The notes beneath the pieces were generated by a model. The model searched no databases and was not told the DNA's origin. It was given only the letters and a program-made list of their open reading frames with translations. Source: an uncultured delta proteobacterium (GTDB lineage Bacteria > Desulfobacterota > Desulfovibrionia > Desulfovibrionales > Desulfovibrionaceae). Taken from it: a DNA stretch of 64,000 bases. Where the stretch lies: NCBI GenBank assembly GCA_900079685.1, contig LT599018.1, positions 2,017,528 through 2,081,527 of the forward strand, read 5' to 3'. Of the stretch, positions 3,574-16,584 are shown piece after piece. The number at the start of each line of letters is the position of its first letter. The first letter of the stretch is position 1. Made by a program: the position numbers and the translations under genes.

Positions 3574-3720
3574 AGCTTGCCCGTAAATAAGTGGAGCGTG
3601 AGCCGAGGACGAGGAAAAGCCCTTTTTTGCGGAGGGAGTGTACTCTTACGGTACTCGACCGGAGCAAAAAAGGGCTTTGACGAAGTAATCGGCCACGAAA
3701 CGCTTATTTACGGGCAAGCT
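3574..3720. repeat. 147-bp long inverted repeat (MITE/REP-like), overlapping a stop codon
   Basis: The outer 18 bases AGCTTGCCCGTAAATAAG (3574-3591) are repeated exactly as the inverted complement at 3703-3720. Inner arms AAAGCCCTTTTTTGC and GCAAAAAAGGGCTTT also pair. The whole segment could fold into a long interrupted hairpin. No open frame of use lies inside. Its last two bases are part of the TAG stop codon (3719-3721) of the ABC permease gene. It could work as a bidirectional terminator, or be a small non-autonomous mobile element; the sequence does not decide. Confidence 0.8.
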
Positions 3721-4555
3721 ACTTGATGCCCGCCCGCATGAACGACTGCACGAACTGCCGCTGGAAGAGCAGGAAGGCGACCAGGAGCGGCCCGGAGGTC
3801 ATGAGCGTGGCGGCTGTAATGATGGTCCAGTCCACGCCCTGCTCGGTGGCGGAAAAGACTTGCAGCCCCACGGTCAAAGGCCGGGAATTGACGGAGTTGG
3901 TCACGATCAGCGGCCAGAGGAAGTTGTTCCAGTGGTAGCTGATGGAAACCAGGGCATAGGCCGCGTAGGTAGGCTTGGCGAGCGGCACGTAGACGTGCCA
4001 GAGCACCTGGAGCGTGTTGGCCCCTTCCACCGCCGCCGCCTCCTCAAGCTCCTTGGGGACGCTCTTGAACGTCTGGCGCAGGAGAAAGATGCCGAAGGCC
4101 GAGGCCATGTACGGCAAACTGATGGCAAGGGTGGAATCCAGCACGCCGATCCTGCTCATGGTGCTGTAGTTCTCCACCACCAGCACGTCGGGCATGATCA
4201 TGAGCTGCATGAGGATCAACCCGAAGGCCACGGTCTTGCCCTTGAAGTCATACCGCGCGAAGGAATAGGCCGCCAGGGTGCATAAGATGAGCTGCATGGC
4301 GGTCGTGAGGGTCACCAGCATGATGGTGTTCACGAAATAGCGGGCAAAGGGCGCGGCGTTCCAAGCGTTGACGAAGTTGTCCAGGGTCAGGGGCGCGGTC
4401 AGCGTGAAGCGGGTTGCGAACTCGGAGGGGTGAAAGGCCGTCCACACGGCGTAAAACAGCGGCAGGCCCCAGAGAATGGCCAGCATCCAGGCGGCTGTCG
4501 TATCGAGGACGCGGGAAAACCCCCGGCTGTCGTAGATGTTGGTCTGTTCCTTCAT
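3719..4555 (-). CDS. ugpE: ABC transporter permease, UgpE/MalG type
   Basis: This 278-residue inner-membrane subunit of a CUT1-type importer has about six hydrophobic helices and the cytoplasmic EAA loop (EEAAAVEGANTLQVLWHVYVP; key residues E-A-A-x3-G) that docks on the ATPase. The start ATG overlaps the stop of the upstream permease gene by four bases (ATGA), so the two are translationally coupled. The stop codon lies inside a long inverted repeat. The Ugp (glycerol-3-phosphate) reading rests on the gene set and on the divergent phosphodiesterase; a maltose-like sugar substrate cannot be excluded. Confidence 0.85.
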   Translation of the reverse strand: MKEQTNIYDSRGFSRVLDTTAAWMLAILWGLPLFYAVWTAFHPSEFATRFTLTAPLTLDNFVNAWNAAPFARYFVNTIMLVTLTTAMQLILCTLAAYSFARYDFKGKTVAFGLILMQLMIMPDVLVVENYSTMSRIGVLDSTLAISLPYMASAFGIFLLRQTFKSVPKELEEAAAVEGANTLQVLWHVYVPLAKPTYAAYALVSISYHWNNFLWPLIVTNSVNSRPLTVGLQVFSATEQGVDWTIITAATLMTSGPLLVAFLLFQRQFVQSFMRAGIK

Positions 4556-5436
4556 CTGTAGTGCACCCTTTTTTCGATAAAGCCGAACTGCAAGATGGCC
4601 GCGAGCCCCAGGAAGCACAGGAGGACCATGGTCAGGGTGGCGCCGTAGCCGGTATCCCAGAACTTGAAGCTGGTTTCATAGATGTAATAGAGCAGGAGCG
4701 AGGTGGCGTTGTTCGGCCCGCCCTGGGTGAGCACGAAAAGGTGGTCCACCATGCGGAAGGCGTTAATGGTGGAATTCACCAGCACGAAGAGCGTCGTCGG
4801 CATGAGCAGCGGGATGACCACCCGGCGGTAGTAATACGCGCGGGACGCGCCCTCCAGCGTCGCGGCTTCACCGAGGGATGGCGGTATCTGCTGCAGCGCC
4901 GCGAGATAGAAAATCATGAAGAAGCCCGCGTCCTTCCAGACGGCCACGGTAATCACGCAGAAGAGCGCCGTGCTTTCGCTCCCCAGCCAGTTCACGCCGG
5001 TTTTCGCGCCGAGAAAGGTCCTGATCTGCTCCAGCAGGCCATAGTCCGGGGTGTAGAAAAAGAGCCAGATATTGGCCACCGCGATCATGGGCAAAACCGT
5101 GGGCACGAAGTAGCAGAGCCGCAAAAACGCCTGCCCCTTAAGCCGGGCGTTGACCAGAAAAGCCATGAGCATGGCCAGGGATATGGCGCAGGGAATGGTG
5201 CAGAAGGCGAAAATCAGGTTGTTGCGCAGCGCTTTATGAAAGACTTCGTCCTCCAGCAGATACGCATAGTGCTCCAGTCCCACGAACTCGGCGGAAGCGC
5301 CGCCGCGTCCGTCGATAAAAAAGCTGTGGATAAAGGTCGTGACCGCCGGAACATGGGTGAAGGCCACGATCAGGGCAAAGCCTGGCAGCAGCAGGAGCCA
5401 TGCGTTGATCTGCCGCATTGTCGCCGGTTTGAGCAT
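4552..5436 (-). CDS. ugpA: ABC transporter permease, UgpA/MalF type
   Basis: This is the 294-residue partner permease of the same importer. It has an N-terminal helix (INAWLLLLPGFALIVAF), six predicted helices and the EAA motif GEAATLEGASRAYYYRRVVIP. It lacks the long extra N-terminal part of MalF and so matches the shorter UgpA form. A ribosome site GGAAAGAACGC precedes ATG 5436. It follows the binding-protein gene after an 81-base gap that holds a strong GC hairpin, and overlaps the next permease gene by four bases. Confidence 0.85.
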   Translation of the reverse strand: MLKPATMRQINAWLLLLPGFALIVAFTHVPAVTTFIHSFFIDGRGGASAEFVGLEHYAYLLEDEVFHKALRNNLIFAFCTIPCAISLAMLMAFLVNARLKGQAFLRLCYFVPTVLPMIAVANIWLFFYTPDYGLLEQIRTFLGAKTGVNWLGSESTALFCVITVAVWKDAGFFMIFYLAALQQIPPSLGEAATLEGASRAYYYRRVVIPLLMPTTLFVLVNSTINAFRMVDHLFVLTQGGPNNATSLLLYYIYETSFKFWDTGYGATLTMVLLCFLGLAAILQFGFIEKRVHYR

Positions 5437-5460
5437 GCGTTCTTTCCTTGACCGTCATTT

Positions 5461-5489
5461 CCGGCGCGGGGGTTGCGCCCCCGCGCCGG
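5461..5489 (-). other. Intercistronic GC stem-loop between binding protein and permeases
   Basis: The inverted arms CCGGCGCGGGGG and CCCCCGCGCCGG enclose a 5-base loop. No T-run follows on either strand, so this is unlikely to be a simple terminator. Such hairpins after binding-protein genes (malE is the known example) protect the upstream mRNA and lower downstream expression. That role here is inference. Confidence 0.6.
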
Positions 5490-5517
5490 GGTTGATCCTC
5501 ATTAAGCAGCGCTTTCC

Positions 5518-6801
5518 TTACTTATTATAGCGGCGCAGGATGCGGGTGGCTTCGCGCTGCGCGTCCTGCAGGGCCGGGCCGGGCTGCTTGGTGCCGTTGA
5601 CCGCGGCCTGGACCGCGTCGTCAAGGGCTTTGGTCACGCGCTGGTTCTCGTGGGTGGAGAGTTCCGGCACGGCGTGGGCCAGCTGGTCGCGGGCCACGGC
5701 GGCATAGGGGAAGCCTTCCACGTATTTTTTCATGCGCTCGGTCTGCCAGGCGTCGGGACGCACGGCCACGTAGCCGGTATCAATGCCCCACTGGGCGGCG
5801 CGCTCGGGCATGGTCATCCACTGGGCGAACTTCACGGCGGCTTTACGTTCCGCGTCGGTGGAGTTCTTGAAGATGTAGAAGTTGCCGCCGCCGGTGGGCG
5901 AACCCAGGCGGGCTTTGGCCGGGAGCATGCCCACGCCGAAATCGAATTTCGCGTTGGTGCGCACGTTGGTCAGGTTGCCGGTGGTCGTCCACATGATGGC
6001 GGTTTTGCGCTCGAAAAAGTCGCGCGGGGTCGTGGACCAGTCAATGGTGCCCTTGGGGGAAACTTCATGCTTGTAGGCGAGGTCCACCAGGAACTGCAAC
6101 GCTTCGATGTTCTTGGGGTTGTCATAGTAGACTTCGTTCCCGGCTTCGTTCATGAGTTCCACGCCGTTCTGGATGGCCAGGGCCTGGAGCATCCAGTACG
6201 CGTAGCCGGTGCTGGGGATGGCCACGCCCCACTGGCTCACCTTGCCGGAGGCGTCCTTTTTGGTCAGCTTTTTGCCCATGTCCACCAGATCCTGCCAGGT
6301 GGCGGGGCCTTTGTCCGGATCAAGCCCGGCTTCCTTGAACATTTCCTTGTTCCAGTACAGCACGATGGTGGAGCGCTGGAAGGGGATGCCCCAAGTTTTG
6401 CCGCCGGTCTGGCTGTTGCGCAGGAAACCGGGGAAATAATCCTTGGTGAAGCCCATGTTCTCTTTGCCCACGATGTCGTCGTACGCCACGATGGCGTCTT
6501 CGTCGATCAGGGTGAACATGTCGGTGGAGAGCAGCACCGCGATATGCGGCGGCTCGCCCCCGCGCAGGGCGGTCAGCGCTTTGGTGATGGTGTCGCGGTA
6601 GTTGCCGGAATAGACGGGGGTGACTTTGATGTCCGGATTTTCCTGCATGAATTCCTGGACCATGCTTTCCACGATTTTGGTGATGGGGCCGCCCACGGAA
6701 ACCGGGAAGTAGTAGGTCAGGTTCGTCTGGGCCGCCAGGGCCGTTCCCGTTGAAAAGACAAGGCAGAGAACGGCCAGGCAAAGGATACGCATACGTTTCA
6801 T
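5518..6801 (-). CDS. ugpB: ABC transporter solute-binding protein, UgpB type
   Basis: This 427-residue periplasmic binding protein of the importer carries a Sec signal peptide (MKRMRILCLAVLCLVFSTGTALA, cleavage after ALA). The mature part opens with TNLTYYFPVSVGGPITKIVE and contains VYSGNYRDTITKALTALRGG and AVLLSTDMFTLIDEDAI, a pattern seen in UgpB-like glycerol-3-phosphate binding proteins of the family-1 type. ATG 6801 follows GAGGAGAATTCC, a strong ribosome site, as expected for the most abundant component. The gene lies 92 bases downstream of the ATPase gene. Confidence 0.85.
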   Translation of the reverse strand: MKRMRILCLAVLCLVFSTGTALAAQTNLTYYFPVSVGGPITKIVESMVQEFMQENPDIKVTPVYSGNYRDTITKALTALRGGEPPHIAVLLSTDMFTLIDEDAIVAYDDIVGKENMGFTKDYFPGFLRNSQTGGKTWGIPFQRSTIVLYWNKEMFKEAGLDPDKGPATWQDLVDMGKKLTKKDASGKVSQWGVAIPSTGYAYWMLQALAIQNGVELMNEAGNEVYYDNPKNIEALQFLVDLAYKHEVSPKGTIDWSTTPRDFFERKTAIMWTTTGNLTNVRTNAKFDFGVGMLPAKARLGSPTGGGNFYIFKNSTDAERKAAVKFAQWMTMPERAAQWGIDTGYVAVRPDAWQTERMKKYVEGFPYAAVARDQLAHAVPELSTHENQRVTKALDDAVQAAVNGTKQPGPALQDAQREATRILRRYNK

Positions 6802-6893
6802 GGAATTCTCCTCAAAAAATGTTTGGGTGCGAATCCGGAACTATCAGGCAATTGTGACAACCGTGTGACGGCCGCACGTCAAAAAACCTCCAA

Positions 6894-7964
6894 TCAGCTT
6901 GGGTCAACGCGCCGGCCGGACGCCGCGTCGAAAAAGTGCAGTTTGTCTTCCGGGAAATGCAGGGTCAAGACGTCACCCGGTTTAACGGCGGGCTGTCCCG
7001 CCATCTGCACGGCCACCTGCTGGTCGCCGACCTTGCAGGCCACCACGGAATCCGCCCCGAGGTACTCCATGCTGACGACCGTGGCCTTCCATGCGCCATC
7101 GGATGGTGTGATGCCGGAGGGCCGTATGGTTATGTCTTCCGGCCGGATGCCGAGGGTGAAATCCGCCGAGCTCACGCGGGGAACGCAACAATCCTCGCTT
7201 CCGCGCACGATCACCTTCCCGTCCCGCGCGGCCACGGCCATGAGGTTCATGGGCGGCGTGCCGATAAAACCGGCCGCGAAGGTCGTGGCCGGGCGGGAAT
7301 ACAGGCGCGCGGGCGCGTCGTTCTGCACGATGTGCCCGCCCTGCATGAGGATGATGGTATCCGCCATGCTCATGGCTTCGGTCTGGTCGTGGGTGACGTA
7401 GACCATGGTCATGCCGAGCCGCTGCTGCAAGGCGCGGATTTCCCGGCGCATTTCGAGCCGGAGCTTGGCGTCGAGGTTGGAGAGGGGTTCGTCCATGAGG
7501 CAGACGGCGGCCTCCGCCACCAGCGCCCGGCCAAGAGCCACGCGCTGCTGCTGCCCGCCGGAAAGCGCGGACGGCTTGCGCTCCAGAAGCCCGGTAAGAC
7601 CGAGGATGTCCACGGCCTTTTCCAGGCGGCGCTTTTGCTCATCCGGCGAGACCTTCCGCACCTTGAGGCCGAACAGGATGTTTTCCCTGACCGTCATATG
7701 AGGGAACAGCGCGTAGGATTGAAAAACCATGGCCAACCGCCGTTTGGCGGGGTGGGTATAGGTTACGTCCGTATCGTCAATAAAAATGCGGCCGCCCGTC
7801 ACCTGTTCAAGGCCCGCGATCAGCCGCAGTGTTGTGGATTTGCCGCAGCCCGAAGGACCGAGCAGAACCAGGAGGGTCCCCTCTTCCACGTCAAAGGAAA
7901 CATTTTCCACGGCGCGGGTGGCATCCCATTGTTTGCAAACGTTCTCAAGACGGATGGCGGCCAA
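6894..7964 (-). CDS. ugpC: ABC transporter ATP-binding protein, UgpC/MalK type (TTG start)
   Basis: This is the ATPase of the importer. Walker A is GPSGCGKST (about residues 36-44), the Q-loop lies in VFQSYALFPHMTV, the signature is LSGGQQQRVALGRAL, Walker B is CLMDEPLSNLD, and the switch His is in YVTHDQTEAM. A C-terminal TOBE region (LGIRPEDITI onward) is the regulatory domain of this subfamily. I place the start at TTG 7964: AAAAGGAG lies 6 bases upstream and the product is then 356 residues, the usual UgpC length; ATG codons farther upstream add residues with no family match. It is the first gene of the four-gene minus-strand operon. Confidence 0.88.
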   Translation of the reverse strand: MAAIRLENVCKQWDATRAVENVSFDVEEGTLLVLLGPSGCGKSTTLRLIAGLEQVTGGRIFIDDTDVTYTHPAKRRLAMVFQSYALFPHMTVRENILFGLKVRKVSPDEQKRRLEKAVDILGLTGLLERKPSALSGGQQQRVALGRALVAEAAVCLMDEPLSNLDAKLRLEMRREIRALQQRLGMTMVYVTHDQTEAMSMADTIILMQGGHIVQNDAPARLYSRPATTFAAGFIGTPPMNLMAVAARDGKVIVRGSEDCCVPRVSSADFTLGIRPEDITIRPSGITPSDGAWKATVVSMEYLGADSVVACKVGDQQVAVQMAGQPAVKPGDVLTLHFPEDKLHFFDAASGRRVDPS

Positions 7965-8028
7965 AACAGACTCCTTTTCACGAAAAGATCCGGGAACGGA
8001 TAATGGGCATAACGCCGGGCAGCGTATA

Positions 8029-8057
8029 ACCATATAGATTGTTACGGTTCAGATCAA
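8029..8057 (-). promoter_or_regulatory. Candidate promoter of the ugp-type operon
   Basis: On the minus strand TTGATC (8057-8052) and TATGGT (8034-8029) are separated by 17 bases, about 65 bases before the TTG start of the ATPase gene. Confidence 0.4.
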
Positions 8058-8290: not shown

Positions 8291-9109
8291 ATGCTTGTCA
8301 TCCAGATTTCCGACCTGCACGTCGCCGCGAACAGGGGCCTGGCCTTCAACGTGGCTGACGGCGCCGCCCTGCTGGAAAAAACCGTGGACCACCTTACAGC
8401 CCTGCCGCAAAAACCGGACTGCGTCGTGGTTTCCGGCGATATCGCCGTGAACGGCACGCCCGGAGGGTACGCGATCGTGGCGGAACAGTTCGCGCGGTTC
8501 GACGTGCCGGTGTTCGTGCTGCCCGGCAACCACGACAACCGGGAAAACCTGCTCGCCGCGCTCGGGCGCTATTGCCCCGCGGACCCCAAGATGGCCCCGT
8601 ACCTCTGTTACACGCGGGAGGAATTTCCGGTGCGCCTGGTGTTCGCGGACGGCACCCGGCCCGGCTCGCATTCCGGGCACCTGGACGAACAGGTCGCGGA
8701 ATGGCTGCAAACCGTCTTCTGCGAGAAGACCGATACCCCGACGCTGCTCTTCACCCACCACCCGCCGTTTCTCTCCGCGCTCGGCGTAATGGACGAGCCG
8801 TATGAAAACGCGGGCGCATTCGGGGCGATCCTGGACGAGAACCCCCAGGTCCGGCTGTGCTGCGGCCACCTGCACCGGTCCATGGCCACCCTGTGGCACG
8901 GGGTCATGGCCATGACCGCGCCGCCGCTCGCCCTGCATATCGTGGCGGATTTCTCCCCGCAGGGCGGGGACGCCTTTACGGACGGCACCCCGGCCTACCT
9001 CGCGCACCATCTGTATGAAGGCCGGGTGAACACCCACGTTTGCCAGGTTCCGGGAACATTCGCCTACAAAGGCCCCTACTCGTTTGCCAAGCCGCCAAAA
9101 CTCTCCTGA
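8291..9109 (+). CDS. GpdQ-like metallophosphodiesterase
   Basis: This 272-residue cytoplasmic calcineurin-like phosphoesterase carries all metal ligands: D8 and H10 (ISDLH), D50 (VVSGD), N80-H81 (LPGNHDN), a His in LLFTHHPPF and two in CGHLHRS. The overall order (SGDIAVNGTPGGYAIVAEQF, FVLPGNHDN, TLLFTHHPPFLSA) resembles GpdQ of Enterobacter, a glycerophosphodiester phosphodiesterase, as well as CpdA (cAMP). Its position, divergent from a Ugp-type importer, favours glycerophosphodiester or related organophosphate hydrolysis after uptake; this is inference from context. It has no signal peptide. The start is supported by GAGGAG. Confidence 0.85.
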   Translation: MLVIQISDLHVAANRGLAFNVADGAALLEKTVDHLTALPQKPDCVVVSGDIAVNGTPGGYAIVAEQFARFDVPVFVLPGNHDNRENLLAALGRYCPADPKMAPYLCYTREEFPVRLVFADGTRPGSHSGHLDEQVAEWLQTVFCEKTDTPTLLFTHHPPFLSALGVMDEPYENAGAFGAILDENPQVRLCCGHLHRSMATLWHGVMAMTAPPLALHIVADFSPQGGDAFTDGTPAYLAHHLYEGRVNTHVCQVPGTFAYKGPYSFAKPPKLS

Positions 9110-9405: not shown

Positions 9406-9434
9406 TTGACATAATAAAACTAAAAAAATAGTTA
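9406..9434 (+). promoter_or_regulatory. Promoter and likely autoregulatory operator of the ArsR gene
   Basis: TTGACA (9406-9411) is followed after 17 bases by TAGTTA (9429-9434). The spacer and -10 box carry an exact inverted repeat, AACTA-N6-TAGTT (9418-9433), in an AT-rich stretch. ArsR-type repressors commonly bind such sites over their own promoters, so this is a good candidate for autoregulation. Confidence 0.55.
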
Positions 9435-9478
9435 TGTAGTCACGATAACGACGCCACTCCAACCCCTCGAGGTACCCG

Positions 9479-9811
9479 ATGAAGCGCGAATATATTGCCG
9501 AATTACCGGAAGGCATGCTCCCCACGGCAGCGATCTTTTCCGCGTTGGGCGATCCCGTCCGGCAGCGGATCCTGATGTTGTTCGAGCCGGGCGAAGCCCT
9601 TTCCATTAAAGATATCGCCGAGCTTTTCGCGCTGAGCCGCACGGCCGTCGTGCATCATCTGATCGTTCTGGAACGGGCGGGCATTCTCGCCCAGCGCCGC
9701 GCCGGCAAGGCGACCCTGTATTCCCTGCGGCCGGAGGTCGTGCTGGAAGCGGTCACCGCCGTGCGCGACTATATCCTTGAGGAATTTCCCGGAGCCGCCG
9801 GAGGCAAGTAA
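9479..9811 (+). CDS. ArsR-family HTH transcriptional regulator
   Basis: This 110-residue winged-helix protein begins its DNA-binding domain with FSALGDPVRQRILMLFEPGE and has the recognition helix in LSRTAVVHHLIVLERAGILAQRRAG followed by the wing LYSLRPE. The metal-binding CxC of ArsR/SmtB sensors is absent, so the signal is probably not a metal. The stop codon overlaps the start of the large lipid-related fusion gene by one base, so the two form an operon, and the regulator probably controls that gene. The ribosome site is GAGG in front of ATG 9479. Confidence 0.88.
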   Translation: MKREYIAELPEGMLPTAAIFSALGDPVRQRILMLFEPGEALSIKDIAELFALSRTAVVHHLIVLERAGILAQRRAGKATLYSLRPEVVLEAVTAVRDYILEEFPGAAGGK

Positions 9812-12800
9812 TGGCTGACACGACCACAACCCCCGCCGCCCCCGCCCCCGCCAACGGGCAGACCGGGACCATCATCGGCCTGGGCAGCTGCTACGCCCTG
9901 GGCACGTTCACGGACAATTTCTATAAGCAGGCCGCCATCCTCATGGCCGCCTCCGGGGCGGCGGCGGGTGCCGGAACGGCCGACATGCTGGGGTTTGCCG
10001 TTTCCATGAACAGCGTGCAGGGCATTGCGACCGTGCTGTTCTCTCTGCCGTTCATCCTGTTTTCCGCCTGGGGCGGCGCCGTGGCCGACAGGGTGGCCAA
10101 AAAGAACATCGCCGTTGCCGCCAAAAGCCTGGAATTTCTTGCGCTGTTCATGGGCGGCTACATGCTCATAACCCAGAACTGGGCGGGCATTTTAGCGGTC
10201 ATCTTCCTCATGGGCACGCAATCCACGTTTTTCAGCCCGGCCATTAACGGCTCCATCCCGGAAAACTTCACGCCGGAGCGGGTGCCCCGGGCCAACGCCC
10301 TTATCAAGCTGGCCTCCACCGCCGCCATTCTCGCCGGGTTCGCCATGGCCGGGTTTGTGCTGGATATCCCGGAAAACGCCTTCGGCGGCCTGTTCGGCCT
10401 TTCCGGCGAAGCGTACGGGCGGGGCGCGGCAGCGGTCTTTATCGTCGTTGTGGCCCTGCTAGGGCTCGTCACGGCGCTCACCTTACGGCGCAGGCCCCCC
10501 GCGGGCGGGGAAAATGTCCCGTTCCCCTGGGCCGGGCCGGTGCAGTCCATTGTGCATACGCGGGAATGCCGCAAGGACAAAGACCTGGTGCTCGCCCTGG
10601 TCGCGGACGCGTGGTTTTACGGCATCGCGGCCATCGCGGTCATCAGCATCGCCAATCTCGCGGCGGAGCTCGGCTACAGCAAGAGCGTGTCGGGCGTCAT
10701 GATGGCCCTGCTCATGATCGGCGTGGCGGCCGGGGCCGTTGCGGGCGGGCGCTTCAGCGTGGAAAGCTGGCGGCGGCTGGTGCTGCCCGTGGGCAGCGCC
10801 ATGGCGGCCTCCCTTTTTCTGGTCGCCGTAACGCCCCACATACCGGCATACCCTTCTCTGGATATGCCGCACGGCTCGCTGGACCCGCAATTTCTCTGGT
10901 TCGGCATAACGCTCTTCCTGAGCGGATTTTTCGGCGGCATGTACATTATCCCGCTGGAAAGCTTCATCCAGGTGCGCCCGGCGGCCCATGAAAAAGGCAA
11001 GGTCATCGCCGTTTCCAACTTCATGAGCTTCGTGGCCATGGCGATTTTCGGCCTCGCGTTCAGGGCCATCAGCCTGCTGCCCCCGGCCCTGACCTTCGCG
11101 GCGTACGGCATTGCCACCTTCCTCTTTCTCTGGCTCGGGGTCAAAACGCGGCTCGTCAACCTTCCCGGAATGAGCATGGCGGACGCGGCAACGAACCCGC
11201 TCGGCCTGCTCCTCCGCCTCGCTCTCTCCCTGCGCTACCGCGTCACGGCCACGGGGCTGGAAAGCATTGCTCCGCCCGTTCCCGTCAACAACGGCACCAG
11301 GACGCCGGGCATCCTGATCCTGCCCAACCACCCGGCCATGGTTGACCCGATCATCGTGTATTCCCGCCTGGCGGGCCTCGCGCCCCGGCCGCTCTCCGAC
11401 GAAGCGCAGATGCGGGGTTTCGTGCAGCGCATCGTGGCCCGCATCCTCCATGTGGTCACCATCCCGGATCTTGAAAAGAACGGGGGCCGGGGCGACGCGG
11501 CCTCCGCCCGGCAGAGCCTGGGCAATATCAGCCAGGCCCTGCGCCAGGGGGACAACGTACTGCTCTACCCTTCCGGACGCGTGTACCGTTCCGCGAGGGA
11601 AGTCCTCGGCAACAAGAGCGCGGTTTCCCGCCTGCTGGCGGAGGTGCCCGGCGCGCGCGTCCTGCTGGTCCGCACCACCGGCCTCTGGGGCAGCAGTTTC
11701 AGCTACGCTTCCGGCAAGACGCCGCAGATCATGCGCCAGCTCTTCCAGGGCGCCCTGACCCTGCTGGGCAACCTGCTCTTTTTCGCGCCGCGCCGCGCCG
11801 TGAGCGTGGAATTCGTGGAACCGGCGGACCTCCCGCGCGACGGCGACAAGCTCCGCCTCAACGCGTACCTTGAGAATTTTTATAACAAGGCGGAAACGCA
11901 GCCGATCTTAGTGCCGCGCTTTTTCTGGCAGCCGCGCGGCACAGCCAAACAAGCGGAACGGGGCAGCCAAAATGCCCGTAAGGCCGAAACGACGCGCCAC
12001 GGCGCGGTGCCAACGGACTCCGCCACAGTTTTCGCAACAGTTCCGGCCACCATTCCGGAAGACATCCGCGACGCGGTATACGCCGTGCTGCGCGACAAGG
12101 GGGGACTGGCGGAAGACCATCCTCTTGATCCCGATCAGAGCCTGACCGAGGACCTGCATTTTGACAGCCTTTCCCTGATGGAAGCGGCCCTTGAGCTGGA
12201 AGCGGCCTTCGGCCACCCCGTGGCCAGCCCGGAAGACATCACAACCGTGGGAGACTGCCTGCGGCTGGCCGCCGGGCTCCTCCAGGCGGAAGACGAGGTG
12301 CCGCCCGCCGACGTCCCGGCGGCCTGGCTCGCCCCGCTCGCGGACGGGGCCGCCCCCCGCCGCGTCGCGCCCGGCGCCCGGAACATGGTGGATACCTTCC
12401 TCGCGCTCGCCCGCGAAAATCCGGACGCGCCTCTGGCCGCCGAACGGTCCGGGATCCGCACCCGCAAGGCCCTGCTCACGGGCATGCTGGCCCTGTCCAA
12501 GCGGTTCGCCGCGTTGCCGGGCAAGCGGCTGGGCATCATGCTGCCCAGCGTGCCGGCGGCCCTGGCCATCTGGCTGGCGGCCATGCACGCGGGCAAAGAA
12601 CCCGTGTTCATCAACTGGACCGTGGGCCGCCGCAACCTTGAGCATTGCCTCGCCCTTGCCGGGGTCGGCTGTGTGGTCAGCGCCTCGGCCCTCATGGACC
12701 AGGTCAGCCGTACGGGAACGCCCCTGGAAGAGCTGCCCGTGACCTGGCTGGCGGCGGAAAAAATCGCGGCAAGCCTGTCCGTGCTTGAAAAACTGCGCGC

Positions 12801-13968
12801 GGCGCTCGGCGCGGCCCTGCACTGCTCCGCGCTGCCTTTTACGGTGCGCGGGACGCGCGTCCCTGAAATCGCGGCCGTGCTGTTCACCTCCGGCTCGGAA
12901 ACCCGGCCCAAGGGCGTGCCGCTTTCCCACACCAACATCATGTGCAACGCCGCCGACGTGCTGGCCGTTCTGCGCCTTACCAAAGACGACAAACTTCTGG
13001 CCATGCTGCCGCCGTTCCATTCTTTCGGCCTGCTGGTGGGGCTTGCCCTGCCCGCCGCCACCGGCATTCCCGCCGCATACCACCCCAACCCCACGGAAAG
13101 CGCGCACCTGAACGCCATGGTCAGGGATTTCAAGGCCACCGTGTTCGGCGCGACGCCGACCTTCCTGGACGGCATGCTGACGAAAGCCAAAGGCAAAAAC
13201 GATCTCGCCTCCCTCCGCTACGCCTTCGCCGGGGCGGAAAAATGCCCGGACCACGTGTACAAAAGCTTCGCCGCCGTGTGCCCGGCCGGAGCGTTATGCG
13301 AAGGGTACGGCATCACGGAATGCTCGCCGGTCGTGGCCGTGAACAGGCCGGAGGACCCGGTCGCCGGCAGCATCGGGCCGGTTCTGCCCTCGGTTCAGGC
13401 GGTCCTGGTGCGGGAAGACGACGACGCGGACGGCCATCCCGTCATTACCGGCCGCGCCGCGCCGGGAGAAACGGGCATGCTCCTGGTGCGCGGCCCGAGC
13501 GTCTTTTCCGGGTACCTCAGCCCGGAGAACGGGGCTCCCGTGCCCAGTCCCTTTGTCCGGTTTGACGACAAAGACTGGTACCGGACCGGGGATCTGGTCA
13601 TGATGGACGAAACCGGCAGGCTGTTCTTCAAGGGGCGGCGCAAGCGGTTCGTCAAACTCGGCGGCGAGATGGTTTCCCTCCCGCAGATGGAGGAGGTCCT
13701 GCAAGAGGCCTTTGCCGCGCTGGCCCAGGGGCTCGACGAAGGCAAGCCGTTCATCGCGGTGGCGGACAGCCGTACCGGCAAAGACACCGATCAGGCGGAA
13801 CTCGTTGCGTTCACCACGCTTGCGCTGAGCGTGCAGGAAATCAACCAGGCTCTGCGCCACGGCGGGCTGTCGCCCCTGCATGCCGTCCGCACGGTGACGC
13901 GGCTCGAGGCGATTCCACTGCTCGGCAGCGGAAAAACGGATTACCGCGCGTTGCAGGGGCAGGCGTAA
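9811..13968 (+). CDS. Four-domain fusion: MFS transporter, acyltransferase, acyl carrier domain, acyl-AMP ligase
   Basis: This 1385-residue inner-membrane protein has four parts. Residues ~20-455 form a multi-helix MFS domain like LplT, the lysophospholipid flippase (GTFTDNFYKQAA, FMGTQSTFFSPAINGSIPE-like loop). Residues ~480-690 are a PlsC-type acyltransferase with N506-H507-x4-D512 (NHPAMVD) and LLYPSGR. After a variable linker, residues ~750-825 look like an acyl carrier domain with LHFDSLSLMEAALELE, the attachment Ser being S786. Residues ~850-1385 are an adenylate-forming acyl ligase with TSGSETRPKG (1026-1035), GYGITECSPVV and WYRTGDLV. In E. coli, LplT and Aas do lysophospholipid uptake and reacylation; here both are fused and the carrier domain is extra. 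Reading: lipid salvage or remodelling. Confidence 0.9.
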   Translation: MADTTTTPAAPAPANGQTGTIIGLGSCYALGTFTDNFYKQAAILMAASGAAAGAGTADMLGFAVSMNSVQGIATVLFSLPFILFSAWGGAVADRVAKKNIAVAAKSLEFLALFMGGYMLITQNWAGILAVIFLMGTQSTFFSPAINGSIPENFTPERVPRANALIKLASTAAILAGFAMAGFVLDIPENAFGGLFGLSGEAYGRGAAAVFIVVVALLGLVTALTLRRRPPAGGENVPFPWAGPVQSIVHTRECRKDKDLVLALVADAWFYGIAAIAVISIANLAAELGYSKSVSGVMMALLMIGVAAGAVAGGRFSVESWRRLVLPVGSAMAASLFLVAVTPHIPAYPSLDMPHGSLDPQFLWFGITLFLSGFFGGMYIIPLESFIQVRPAAHEKGKVIAVSNFMSFVAMAIFGLAFRAISLLPPALTFAAYGIATFLFLWLGVKTRLVNLPGMSMADAATNPLGLLLRLALSLRYRVTATGLESIAPPVPVNNGTRTPGILILPNHPAMVDPIIVYSRLAGLAPRPLSDEAQMRGFVQRIVARILHVVTIPDLEKNGGRGDAASARQSLGNISQALRQGDNVLLYPSGRVYRSAREVLGNKSAVSRLLAEVPGARVLLVRTTGLWGSSFSYASGKTPQIMRQLFQGALTLLGNLLFFAPRRAVSVEFVEPADLPRDGDKLRLNAYLENFYNKAETQPILVPRFFWQPRGTAKQAERGSQNARKAETTRHGAVPTDSATVFATVPATIPEDIRDAVYAVLRDKGGLAEDHPLDPDQSLTEDLHFDSLSLMEAALELEAAFGHPVASPEDITTVGDCLRLAAGLLQAEDEVPPADVPAAWLAPLADGAAPRRVAPGARNMVDTFLALARENPDAPLAAERSGIRTRKALLTGMLALSKRFAALPGKRLGIMLPSVPAALAIWLAAMHAGKEPVFINWTVGRRNLEHCLALAGVGCVVSASALMDQVSRTGTPLEELPVTWLAAEKIAASLSVLEKLRAALGAALHCSALPFTVRGTRVPEIAAVLFTSGSETRPKGVPLSHTNIMCNAADVLAVLRLTKDDKLLAMLPPFHSFGLLVGLALPAATGIPAAYHPNPTESAHLNAMVRDFKATVFGATPTFLDGMLTKAKGKNDLASLRYAFAGAEKCPDHVYKSFAAVCPAGALCEGYGITECSPVVAVNRPEDPVAGSIGPVLPSVQAVLVREDDDADGHPVITGRAAPGETGMLLVRGPSVFSGYLSPENGAPVPSPFVRFDDKDWYRTGDLVMMDETGRLFFKGRRKRFVKLGGEMVSLPQMEEVLQEAFAALAQGLDEGKPFIAVADSRTGKDTDQAELVAFTTLALSVQEINQALRHGGLSPLHAVRTVTRLEAIPLLGSGKTDYRALQGQA

Positions 13969-14679: not shown

Positions 14680-16584
14680 TTATTTCACTTCGGTGTAATC
14701 CGCGTCCACCACGTCGTCGTCGGACGACTTGGCGGAAGACGCGCCGCCGGTCCCGGCAGCGTCATCGCCGCCGCCCTGCTGCGCTTTCTGCGAGTAGAGC
14801 TGTTCCGCAAGCGCGTGCGACGCCTTGGAAAGCTCGTCCATGGCCTTCTTGATGGTGTCGATGTTATCCGACTCCATGGCCGTTTTCAGCGCGTTGCTCT
14901 TGGCTTCGATGTCGGACCTGAGGGACGGGTCAACCTTGTCGCCGAGGTCGGCCAGGGACTTCTGCGTGGAGTAGACCAGCGCGTCGGCATGGTTGCGCGT
15001 TTCGATCAGTTCCTGTTTCTTCTTGTCGTCCTCGGCGTGGGCTTCGGCGTCTTTCACCAGCCGCTGGATTTCGTCTTCGGAGAGGCCCGAGGACGCAGTG
15101 ATGCGGATGGTCTGTTCCTTGCCGGTGCCCAGGTCCTTGGCGGACACGTTCACAATGCCGTTGGCGTCGATATCGAAGGCCACCTCGATCTGCGGCACGC
15201 CGCGCGGCGCCGCCGGGATACCCGTGAGCTCGAACCGGCCCAGCGTCATGTTGTCGTTGGCCATGGGGCGTTCGCCCTGCAGCACGTGGATGGAGACGGA
15301 GGGCTGGTTGTCCGCCGCGGTGGAGAATACCTGGCTCTTGCGGGTCGGGATCGTGGTGTTGCGGTCGATGAGCTTGGTCATCACGCCGCCGAGGGTTTCA
15401 ATGCCCAGCGACAGCGGGGTCACGTCGAGGAGCAGCACGTCTTTCACGTCGCCGGCCAGGATGCCGCCCTGAATGGCCGCGCCCATGGCCACCACTTCGT
15501 CCGGGTTCACGCCGCGGTGCGGTTCCTTGCCGAAGAATTCCTGCACCTTTTTCAGGACCAGGGGCATGCGGGTCATGCCGCCGACCAGCACCACCTCGTC
15601 AATTTCGGAGGCTTTCATGCCCGCGTCCGCCAGGGCCTTTTTGCAAGGATCGATGGTGCGATCGACCAGATCCTGGACCAGGCTTTCCAGCTTGGCGCGG
15701 GTGAGTTTGAGCATCATGTGCTTGGGCCCGGACTGGTCGGCCGTGATAAAGGGCAAATTGACGTCCGCCTCCATGGAGGTGGACAGGTCCTTCTTGGCCT
15801 TTTCCGCGGCTTCTTTCAGGCGCTGCAGGGCCATGTTGTCTTTCGTCAGGTCAATGCCGTTTTCCTTGCGGAATTCGTCCACCAGCCAGTTGATGACGCG
15901 CTGGTCGAAATCTTCGCCGCCGAGGAAGGTATCGCCGTTGGTGGCGCGCACTTCAACCACGTTGTCGCCCACTTCGAGGACGGAAATATCGAAGGTGCCG
16001 CCGCCGAGGTCGAACACCGCGATCTTCTCGTTGGCTTTTCTGTCAAACCCGTAGGCAAGGGATGCCGCCGTGGGTTCGTTGATGATGCGTTTGACGTCAA
16101 GACCGGCGATGCGGCCCGCGTCCTTGGTGGCCTGGCGCTGCGAGTCGTTGAAGTAGGCCGGAACGGTGATGACCGCTTCGGTGACGGTTTCGCCGAGGTA
16201 GGCTTCCGCGTCGGCCTTCAGTTTGCCGAGAATCATGGCGGAAATTTCAGGCGCGGTGTAGGTCTGGCCTTCGATGGAGACGGCGGCCTCGCCGTTTTTG
16301 CCCGCGACTATCTTATAGGGGCTGTGTTCCATCCAGCGTTTCACTTCAGGCGCGTCGGCGCGGCGTCCCATCAACCGCTTGATGGCGAAAATCGTCCGCT
16401 CCGGATTGGTCACGGCCTGGCGTTTGGCGATATCGCCAACAAGGCGTTCCTTGCCCGTGAACGCGACGATGGACGGGGTGGTCCGTCCGCCTTCAGGGTT
16501 GGTGACGCACTTGGGTTCTTTGCCTTCCATGACGAAAACGCAGGAGTTTGTTGTCCCAAGGTCTATGCCGATAATCTTGCCCAT
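14680..16584 (-). CDS. dnaK: Chaperone DnaK (Hsp70)
   Basis: This 634-residue ATP-dependent chaperone is full length. The ATPase domain starts [16 protein letters not shown] and includes [33 protein letters not shown] and [11 protein letters not shown]. The substrate-binding domain follows [20 protein letters not shown], and the C-terminal lid ends in a Gly/Ala/Ser linker and acidic [13 protein letters not shown], the conserved tail. The ribosome site AGAGAGGGACACTC precedes ATG 16584. No grpE or dnaJ lies beside it here. Upstream I found neither a CIRCE element nor a convincing heat-shock promoter; GTCACC-N15-GGTGAC at 16654-16680 is the only inverted repeat. Confidence 0.97.

Follow-up and report, generated by a model that had tools for sequence, protein, structure and literature searches.

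The 64,000-nucleotide stretch analysed here (the window; uncultured delta proteobacterium of the Desulfovibrionaceae, GenBank assembly GCA_900079685.1, contig LT599018.1, positions 2,017,528 to 2,081,527) encodes, at 9811-13968 on the + strand, a single protein of 1385 residues counted from its ATG. A major facilitator superfamily (MFS) domain, a PlsC-type acyltransferase, an acyl carrier domain and an AMP-forming ligase follow one another in this one chain, and the open reading frame (ORF) and the Pfam domain search thus agree with the initial annotation, which had read these four parts in one 1385-codon frame. We consider it reasonably probable that the protein is a lipid salvage machine of the LplT-Aas type with a captive acyl carrier, a reading in which the chemistry, the loading in cis, the substrate, the direction of transport and the repression are what we infer. 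The idea that a whole salvage cycle is placed in one chain stands as far as the fusion of MFS, acyltransferase and ligase is concerned; the fusion itself is not new, since single-chain LplT-Aas fusions are already named in NCBIfam (PRK08633, PRK06814) and are mentioned as uncharacterised in the excerpted text of PMC11416262. What is new is the carrier between acyltransferase and ligase, together with a divergent acyltransferase and an operon headed by an ArsR-type gene, in a separate clade found in 48 genomes of the phylum. No description of the carrier-bearing form or of its operon was found among the literature matches listed, which covered little of the subscription literature.

The Pfam E-values for the 1385-residue protein are 3e-21 (MFS_1), 8e-6 (Acyltransferase), 7e-4 (PP-binding) and 5e-56 (AMP-binding, PF00501), and the domain assignments are shared by NCBIfam and by hidden Markov models (HMMs) of the family domains; all features of the operon given below lie on the + strand. 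The MFS domain (residues 12-439, 9844-11127) is LplT-like, with 181 bits against the N-terminal part of PRK08633 and 80.5 bits against the LplT model, and LplT-type models are its closest named matches. The PlsC-type acyltransferase (residues 466-690, 11206-11880) reaches 30 bits against PF01553, whose cut-off is 23, and this model matches 46 of 46 family segments at an E-value of 0.01. The ligase at the C-terminal end (residues 860-1384, 12388-13962) is of the Aas/FadD type, as indicated by PF00501, the C-terminal part of PRK08633 and the ligase tree; for the MFS and ligase parts of the window protein, the best named models are the LplT-Aas fusions PRK08633 and PRK06814. The sequence motifs noted earlier were found in place: NHPAMVD from residue 506, LHFDSLSL from 782 (with Ser786) and TSGSETRPKG from 1026.

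The acyl carrier domain is borderline on the window protein alone and firm across the family. The lack of a carrier match at residues 750-825 had been named as refuting the initial reading; a match was found at 745-820 (12043-12270), between acyltransferase and ligase, a position at which Escherichia coli Aas has no such domain, as had also been stated. With the whole protein as query, PF00550 scores 20.2 bits, slightly below its cut-off of 20.8; when the 84-residue carrier segment is scanned alone, the score rises to 25.5 bits and exceeds it. A 125-residue stretch around the carrier matches an acyl carrier protein (ACP) model at 3.7e-7, with 29.9 bits, below the curated cut-off of 71. Across the family, 47 of 48 carrier segments scanned alone match PF00550 (E-value 0.01; the cut segment of L148 was omitted), and the pair Asp785-Ser786 is invariant in all 49 carrier proteins, which span seven families of the phylum. 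The family carrier profile retrieves ACP structures from the PDB, the best being 2ehs, the Aquifex aeolicus ACP, at 4.8e-14. In an AlphaFold2 model of the carrier segment built from three rows (predicted local distance difference test, pLDDT, 76), Ser786, the predicted phosphopantetheine site (codon 12166-12168), is the first residue of the second helix, and the top-ranked Foldseek matches of this model in the PDB are ACP chains (best E-value 4.8e-4). The window carrier thus has the helical fold and the DSL motif in common with ACPs (PF00550/PRK00982), from which it differs in forming part of a membrane enzyme rather than occurring free or within a synthase. A chance match was rejected, because conservation, profile and fold evidence concur despite the single-protein Pfam score under the cut-off; an assembly artefact was likewise rejected, as the domain order repeats across many genomes, including the single-contig G086 and G090.

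The distribution of this architecture was established in 59 relatives, 288 genomes of the same family and 395 genomes from across the phylum, with five further loci from a named collection (titled Desulfovibrio, Desulfovibrionaceae or Deltaproteobacteria; Desulfobacterota in the GTDB naming). A nine-row alignment (A1) gave matches at an E-value of 1e-60 in 48 of the 288 family genomes and 16 of the 395 phylum genomes, seven of them shared; these counts are lower bounds, the best few candidates per genome having been scored at a strict threshold. After removal of five duplicate loci (L044, L050, L099, L100, L140), the ORFs were scored with the family's own domain HMMs. The carrier form comprises 49 proteins in 48 genomes, namely 39 of the 288 family genomes and nine genomes of six other families. 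The ligase adjoins the carrier in 49 of 49 proteins, and every carrier protein that is not truncated at a contig end has an acyltransferase domain. The MFS domain lies in the same chain in 34 of the 49 (for L049, at a contig edge, just the end of the domain), and a separate MFS gene stands directly upstream or overlaps in five loci (L045, L116, L133, L134, L137); no MFS was seen for the remaining ten, and contig ends truncate seven of these. Nine relatives are carrier-less, six of them of MFS-acyltransferase form and three consisting of the acyltransferase alone; no ligase was found in these chains, and no family-type ligase in the fetched stretches, which are the part of the genomes searched and which for L142 stop at the contig edge. 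The survey of the carrier form covered the phylum of the window and, outside it, the best record of a plasmid collection. None of the 1639 matching plasmid records covers 80% of the query, and the best one (H1, Azospirillum) has no carrier. A TetR-type regulator gene (L150:856-1437) lies immediately upstream of this carrier-less Azospirillum fusion, which parallels the regulator next to the window's gene.

In the proposed mechanism, drawn by analogy with LplT-Aas, a lysophospholipid or related lyso-lipid would be brought to the inner leaflet by the MFS part, while the ligase, using ATP, would make acyl-AMP from a free fatty acid and load the phosphopantetheine arm of Ser786. The loaded arm would then swing in cis to the acyltransferase, where the HX4D dyad would acylate the lyso-lipid. 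With a built-in ACP, the acyl group would stay on the enzyme, whereas E. coli Aas uses a tightly held free ACP; in the excerpted part of PMC11271967, Aas is reported to bind acyl-ACP so tightly that other pathways cannot obtain the acyl group. The E. coli system resembles the window protein in combining an LplT-like flippase with an acyltransferase-ligase, and differs in consisting of two proteins with no fused carrier and with FPEG as acyltransferase motif III. The known LplT-Aas fusions share the order of MFS, PlsC-type acyltransferase and AMP ligase with the window protein; the six classic ones of the phylum (L051-L054, L056, L059) and the Azospirillum one have no carrier, and their motif III is PEG. 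The chain can be regarded as a single-polypeptide version of the LplT-Aas transporter-enzyme complex, studied as two proteins in the excerpt of PMC11416262. Because the captive carrier has apparently been made covalent, the channelling of acyl groups between ligase and acyltransferase could be tested by one serine change.

Lysophospholipid, the acceptor assumed by the initial annotation, would by analogy be the likeliest one. It is plausible because the MFS domain is closest to LplT-type models and because the genome has Lnt, which makes lysophospholipid; it is plausible rather than proven, as the motif III of the family has no Glu of the kind present in Aas and the classic fusions. The motif I (N506 to D512, 11326-11346) conforms to the type, being mostly NHPALxDP in the family, with the H and D of HX4D invariant across the aligned sequences. 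The motif III position reads Y586-P-S-G589 (11566-11577) in the window protein, with Ser in place of the usual Glu of PEG, and YP[SA]G or similar in the family. The Glu is missing in 46 of 46 aligned carrier proteins, three of the 49 not being alignable, and in nine of nine carrier-less relatives (55 of 55 overall). It is kept in six of six classic fusions from the phylum, and also in the Azospirillum fusion and E. coli Aas; of two other acyltransferases in the window's genome, the one that was readable by motif search keeps it as well. The family thus provides acyltransferases that naturally dispense with a motif III Glu important in their relatives.

The excerpted text of PMC4280512 describes motif III as involved in acceptor binding, and TMEM68, which belongs to PF01553 and whose motifs II and III are poorly conserved, is described in the excerpts of PMC5417663 and PMC9916437 as acting on mono- and diacylglycerol (monoacylglycerol and diacylglycerol acyltransferase, MGAT/DGAT). 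TMEM68-type acyltransferases share PF01553, HX4D and a non-standard motif III with the family; they are eukaryotic, and the likeness is one of description only, drawn as an analogy. Taking into account the lost Glu, the role of this motif and the TMEM68 precedent, the acceptor is not to be assumed. It is therefore conceivable, at a clearly lower probability than salvage of lyso-lipids, that the same captive-arm chemistry serves a neutral or small acceptor (an acylglycerol, an alcohol or an amino-lipid precursor), with the MFS part importing the acceptor or exporting the product; the weaker match of the MFS domain to an H+ antiporter model would also fit such a role. Against it, LplT-Aas fusions are the nearest matches of both MFS and ligase, the sequence GLWGS is common to the family acyltransferase and five of the six classic fusions, and no known biosynthetic cluster was found in the flanks, which were compared only with nine window genes.

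The relation between the carrier and its ligase is best seen in the trees. In the ligase tree, the carrier-bearing ligases fall into a single clade (100/98), with E. coli Aas and the classic fusions as its neighbours; the second "change" in this tree comes from a duplicate row of L046 that was mislabelled as outgroup and groups with its twin. The acyltransferase tree unites the classic type in one clade (99/99) and has the nine carrier-less relatives dispersed inside the carrier clade (five changes). Alignment A3 excludes L148, and the acyltransferase alignment and tree exclude L124, L139 and L148, in which the acyltransferase match is cut, split or missing. The carrier-less relatives are read as repeated joint loss of carrier and ligase, the exact number of losses being uncertain since some forks are weakly supported. 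Such joint gain or loss fits a carrier serving the attached ligase, for which the joint presence and absence is the best sequence evidence. A conventional Aas fusion, whose ligase would use free AcpP or coenzyme A and whose carrier insert would be inert or accessory and structural, is consistent with the free-standing carrier frames of the genome and with the lack of such an insert in the classic fusions and E. coli Aas; it is nevertheless improbable, given an Asp-Ser pair that never varies across seven families and a clade in which neither carrier without ligase nor ligase without carrier was found. The scavenging of exogenous fatty acids by ligase and carrier for AcpP or another acyltransferase, with lyso-lipid transport secondary, would agree with the match of the ligase to the stand-alone acyl-ACP ligase model PRK06334 (3.6e-98), yet it is very improbable, as every uncut carrier protein has the acyltransferase and MFS-acyltransferase forms remain where ligase and carrier are gone.

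The operon is headed by an ArsR-type winged-helix regulator of 110 residues (9479-9811; HTH_20 3e-10, HTH_5 4e-8, NF033788 63 bits with a cut-off of 55), whose ORF terminates in TAATG and thereby overlaps the ATG of the 1385-residue frame by one base. Upstream, a -35-like TTGACA (9406-9411), assigned by position and by a similar TTGAC-operator layout in many relatives, is followed six bases later by AACTA-N6-TAGTT (9418-9433), which lies within a 24-bp operator-like palindrome, AACTAAAAAAATAGTTATGTAGTC (9418-9441; family consensus AACTAnnnAACTAGTTnnnTAGTT), over the presumed -10 element. The coordinates thus confirm the one-base overlap and the palindrome over the promoter described earlier. 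The "lipid-stress switch" proposed at the same time holds as regards the regulator gene and the conserved operator-like palindrome over its promoter, the lipid-stress part being a guess. From the position of the palindrome, the ArsR-type protein probably acts as an autorepressor, and in the proposed mechanism it would repress its operon through the 24-bp site; the palindrome offers a direct handle on the signal that switches the system in these bacteria. The winged helix, the operon-heading gene and the palindrome across its own promoter are features of ArsR/SdpR-type regulators, from which this one differs by the absence of a cysteine thiol site, the AACTA-based 24-bp palindrome and the lipid-enzyme partner. 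The SdpR subfamily model NF033789 gives 53.6 bits, below its cut-off of 100. Cysteine-based metal sensing is not supported, the window regulator having no cysteine, like 24 of the 33 family regulators.

The conservation of the palindrome was assessed in 33 ArsR upstream regions, comprising the 30 of 49 carrier loci with an upstream ArsR-type gene and the loci L041, L141 and L142; in G001, a genome of the same genus, a contig break divides the operon and leaves the ArsR gene on a second contig. At least 18 positions of a 25-base consensus, drawn from these same regions, are matched in 31 of the 33, and 50 shuffles per locus, which peak at 12-18 positions, never reach the real score in the 31. 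The exceptions are L101, which is cut, and L040, in which a perfect 12-4-12 palindrome unlike the family operator (L040:5340-5367) lies ahead of the ArsR gene; there the operator may have been replaced. A 24-mer scan of 19 whole genomes with up to two mismatches found sites in 16 (none in G174, G308 and G325), and the backwards control gave 0 matches. Each of the 16 has a site at the operon, G102 and G147 have a second in the same promoter, and sites elsewhere occur only in the window's genome (two more) and in its genus-mate G001 (one more). A shorter 17-base pattern with two mismatches gave 10 matches in the window's genome versus 12 for the control, its sole exact match being the window site. 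Copies in the window's genome (G000) at G000:C1:256867-256890 (L162) and, in the genus-mate, at L049:2705-2728 lie ahead of small exported-looking proteins with, by eye, a common FPPxxTRLNxL-like tail, and this small exported protein may be a second target of the regulator in this genus. A further copy at G000:C2:556083-556106 (L161) precedes an ORF of 465 residues that appears by eye repeat-rich and lipoprotein-like. It is possible, as a tentative extension, that the family couples transport and acylation in a single chain through a covalent acyl arm, with a non-standard (non-lysophosphatidate) acceptor and with a dedicated ArsR-type repressor whose targets in this genus would include the protein with the FPP..TRLN tail; such a system may respond to envelope damage instead of recycling lysophospholipid as a housekeeping function.

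Several observations weigh against salvage by an LplT-Aas-type machine with a captive carrier. The scores of PRK08633 (569.8 bits) and PRK06814 (441.3 bits) are far below the equivalog cut-offs of 1221 and 1349 bits. The motif III Glu, substituted by Ala, Ser, Gly or Thr in all 55 family sequences, is a residue whose change abolished activity in human AGPAT1 and strongly cut it in mouse GPAT1, according to the excerpted text of PMC4280512, and the family acyltransferase profile reaches the solved PlsC 5kym only at an E-value of 0.04. An AlphaFold2 model of residues 454-1385 (three rows) has a mean pLDDT of 38 and is unusable outside the carrier block. Expression of E. coli LplT was disrupted when Aas was attached artificially to the end of the protein, as stated in the excerpt of PMC11416262, so the single-chain arrangement is not trivially workable. 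As regards the regulator, no ArsR-type match was found in the long upstream stretches of L039, L047, L107, L114, L116, L131, L134, L136 and L137; several other carrier loci with no ArsR gene are cut. Finally, no match to a PldA phospholipase was found in the window's genome, and no Ugp set in the flanks fetched for the relatives, which extend about 4 kb at most and were compared with nine window genes.

In the window itself, a UgpBAEC-like ATP-binding cassette (ABC) uptake set, under the curated cut-offs (3719-8033, - strand), and a calcineurin-type phosphodiesterase (8291-9109, + strand), which presumably resembles GpdQ, lie upstream of the operon. A conserved glycerophosphodiester/lysophospholipid island with Ugp-like genes was considered and is not supported: only the phosphodiesterase recurs (L102, L104), and the UgpC matches in other loci are distant ATPases of 24-33% identity, more distant copies lying beyond the reach of flanks of this length. 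Free-standing PF00550 frames are present in the window's genome, which indicates that the fused carrier is not a stand-in for a missing pool. Two carrier-domain frames and one acyltransferase are found within 9 kb at G000:C1:1420009-1428784, possibly a fatty-acid-type cluster. A dnaK gene lies near the family gene or a partial form of it in the window (14680-16584) and in L039, L042 (MFS alone), L049 and L142 (MFS-acyltransferase).

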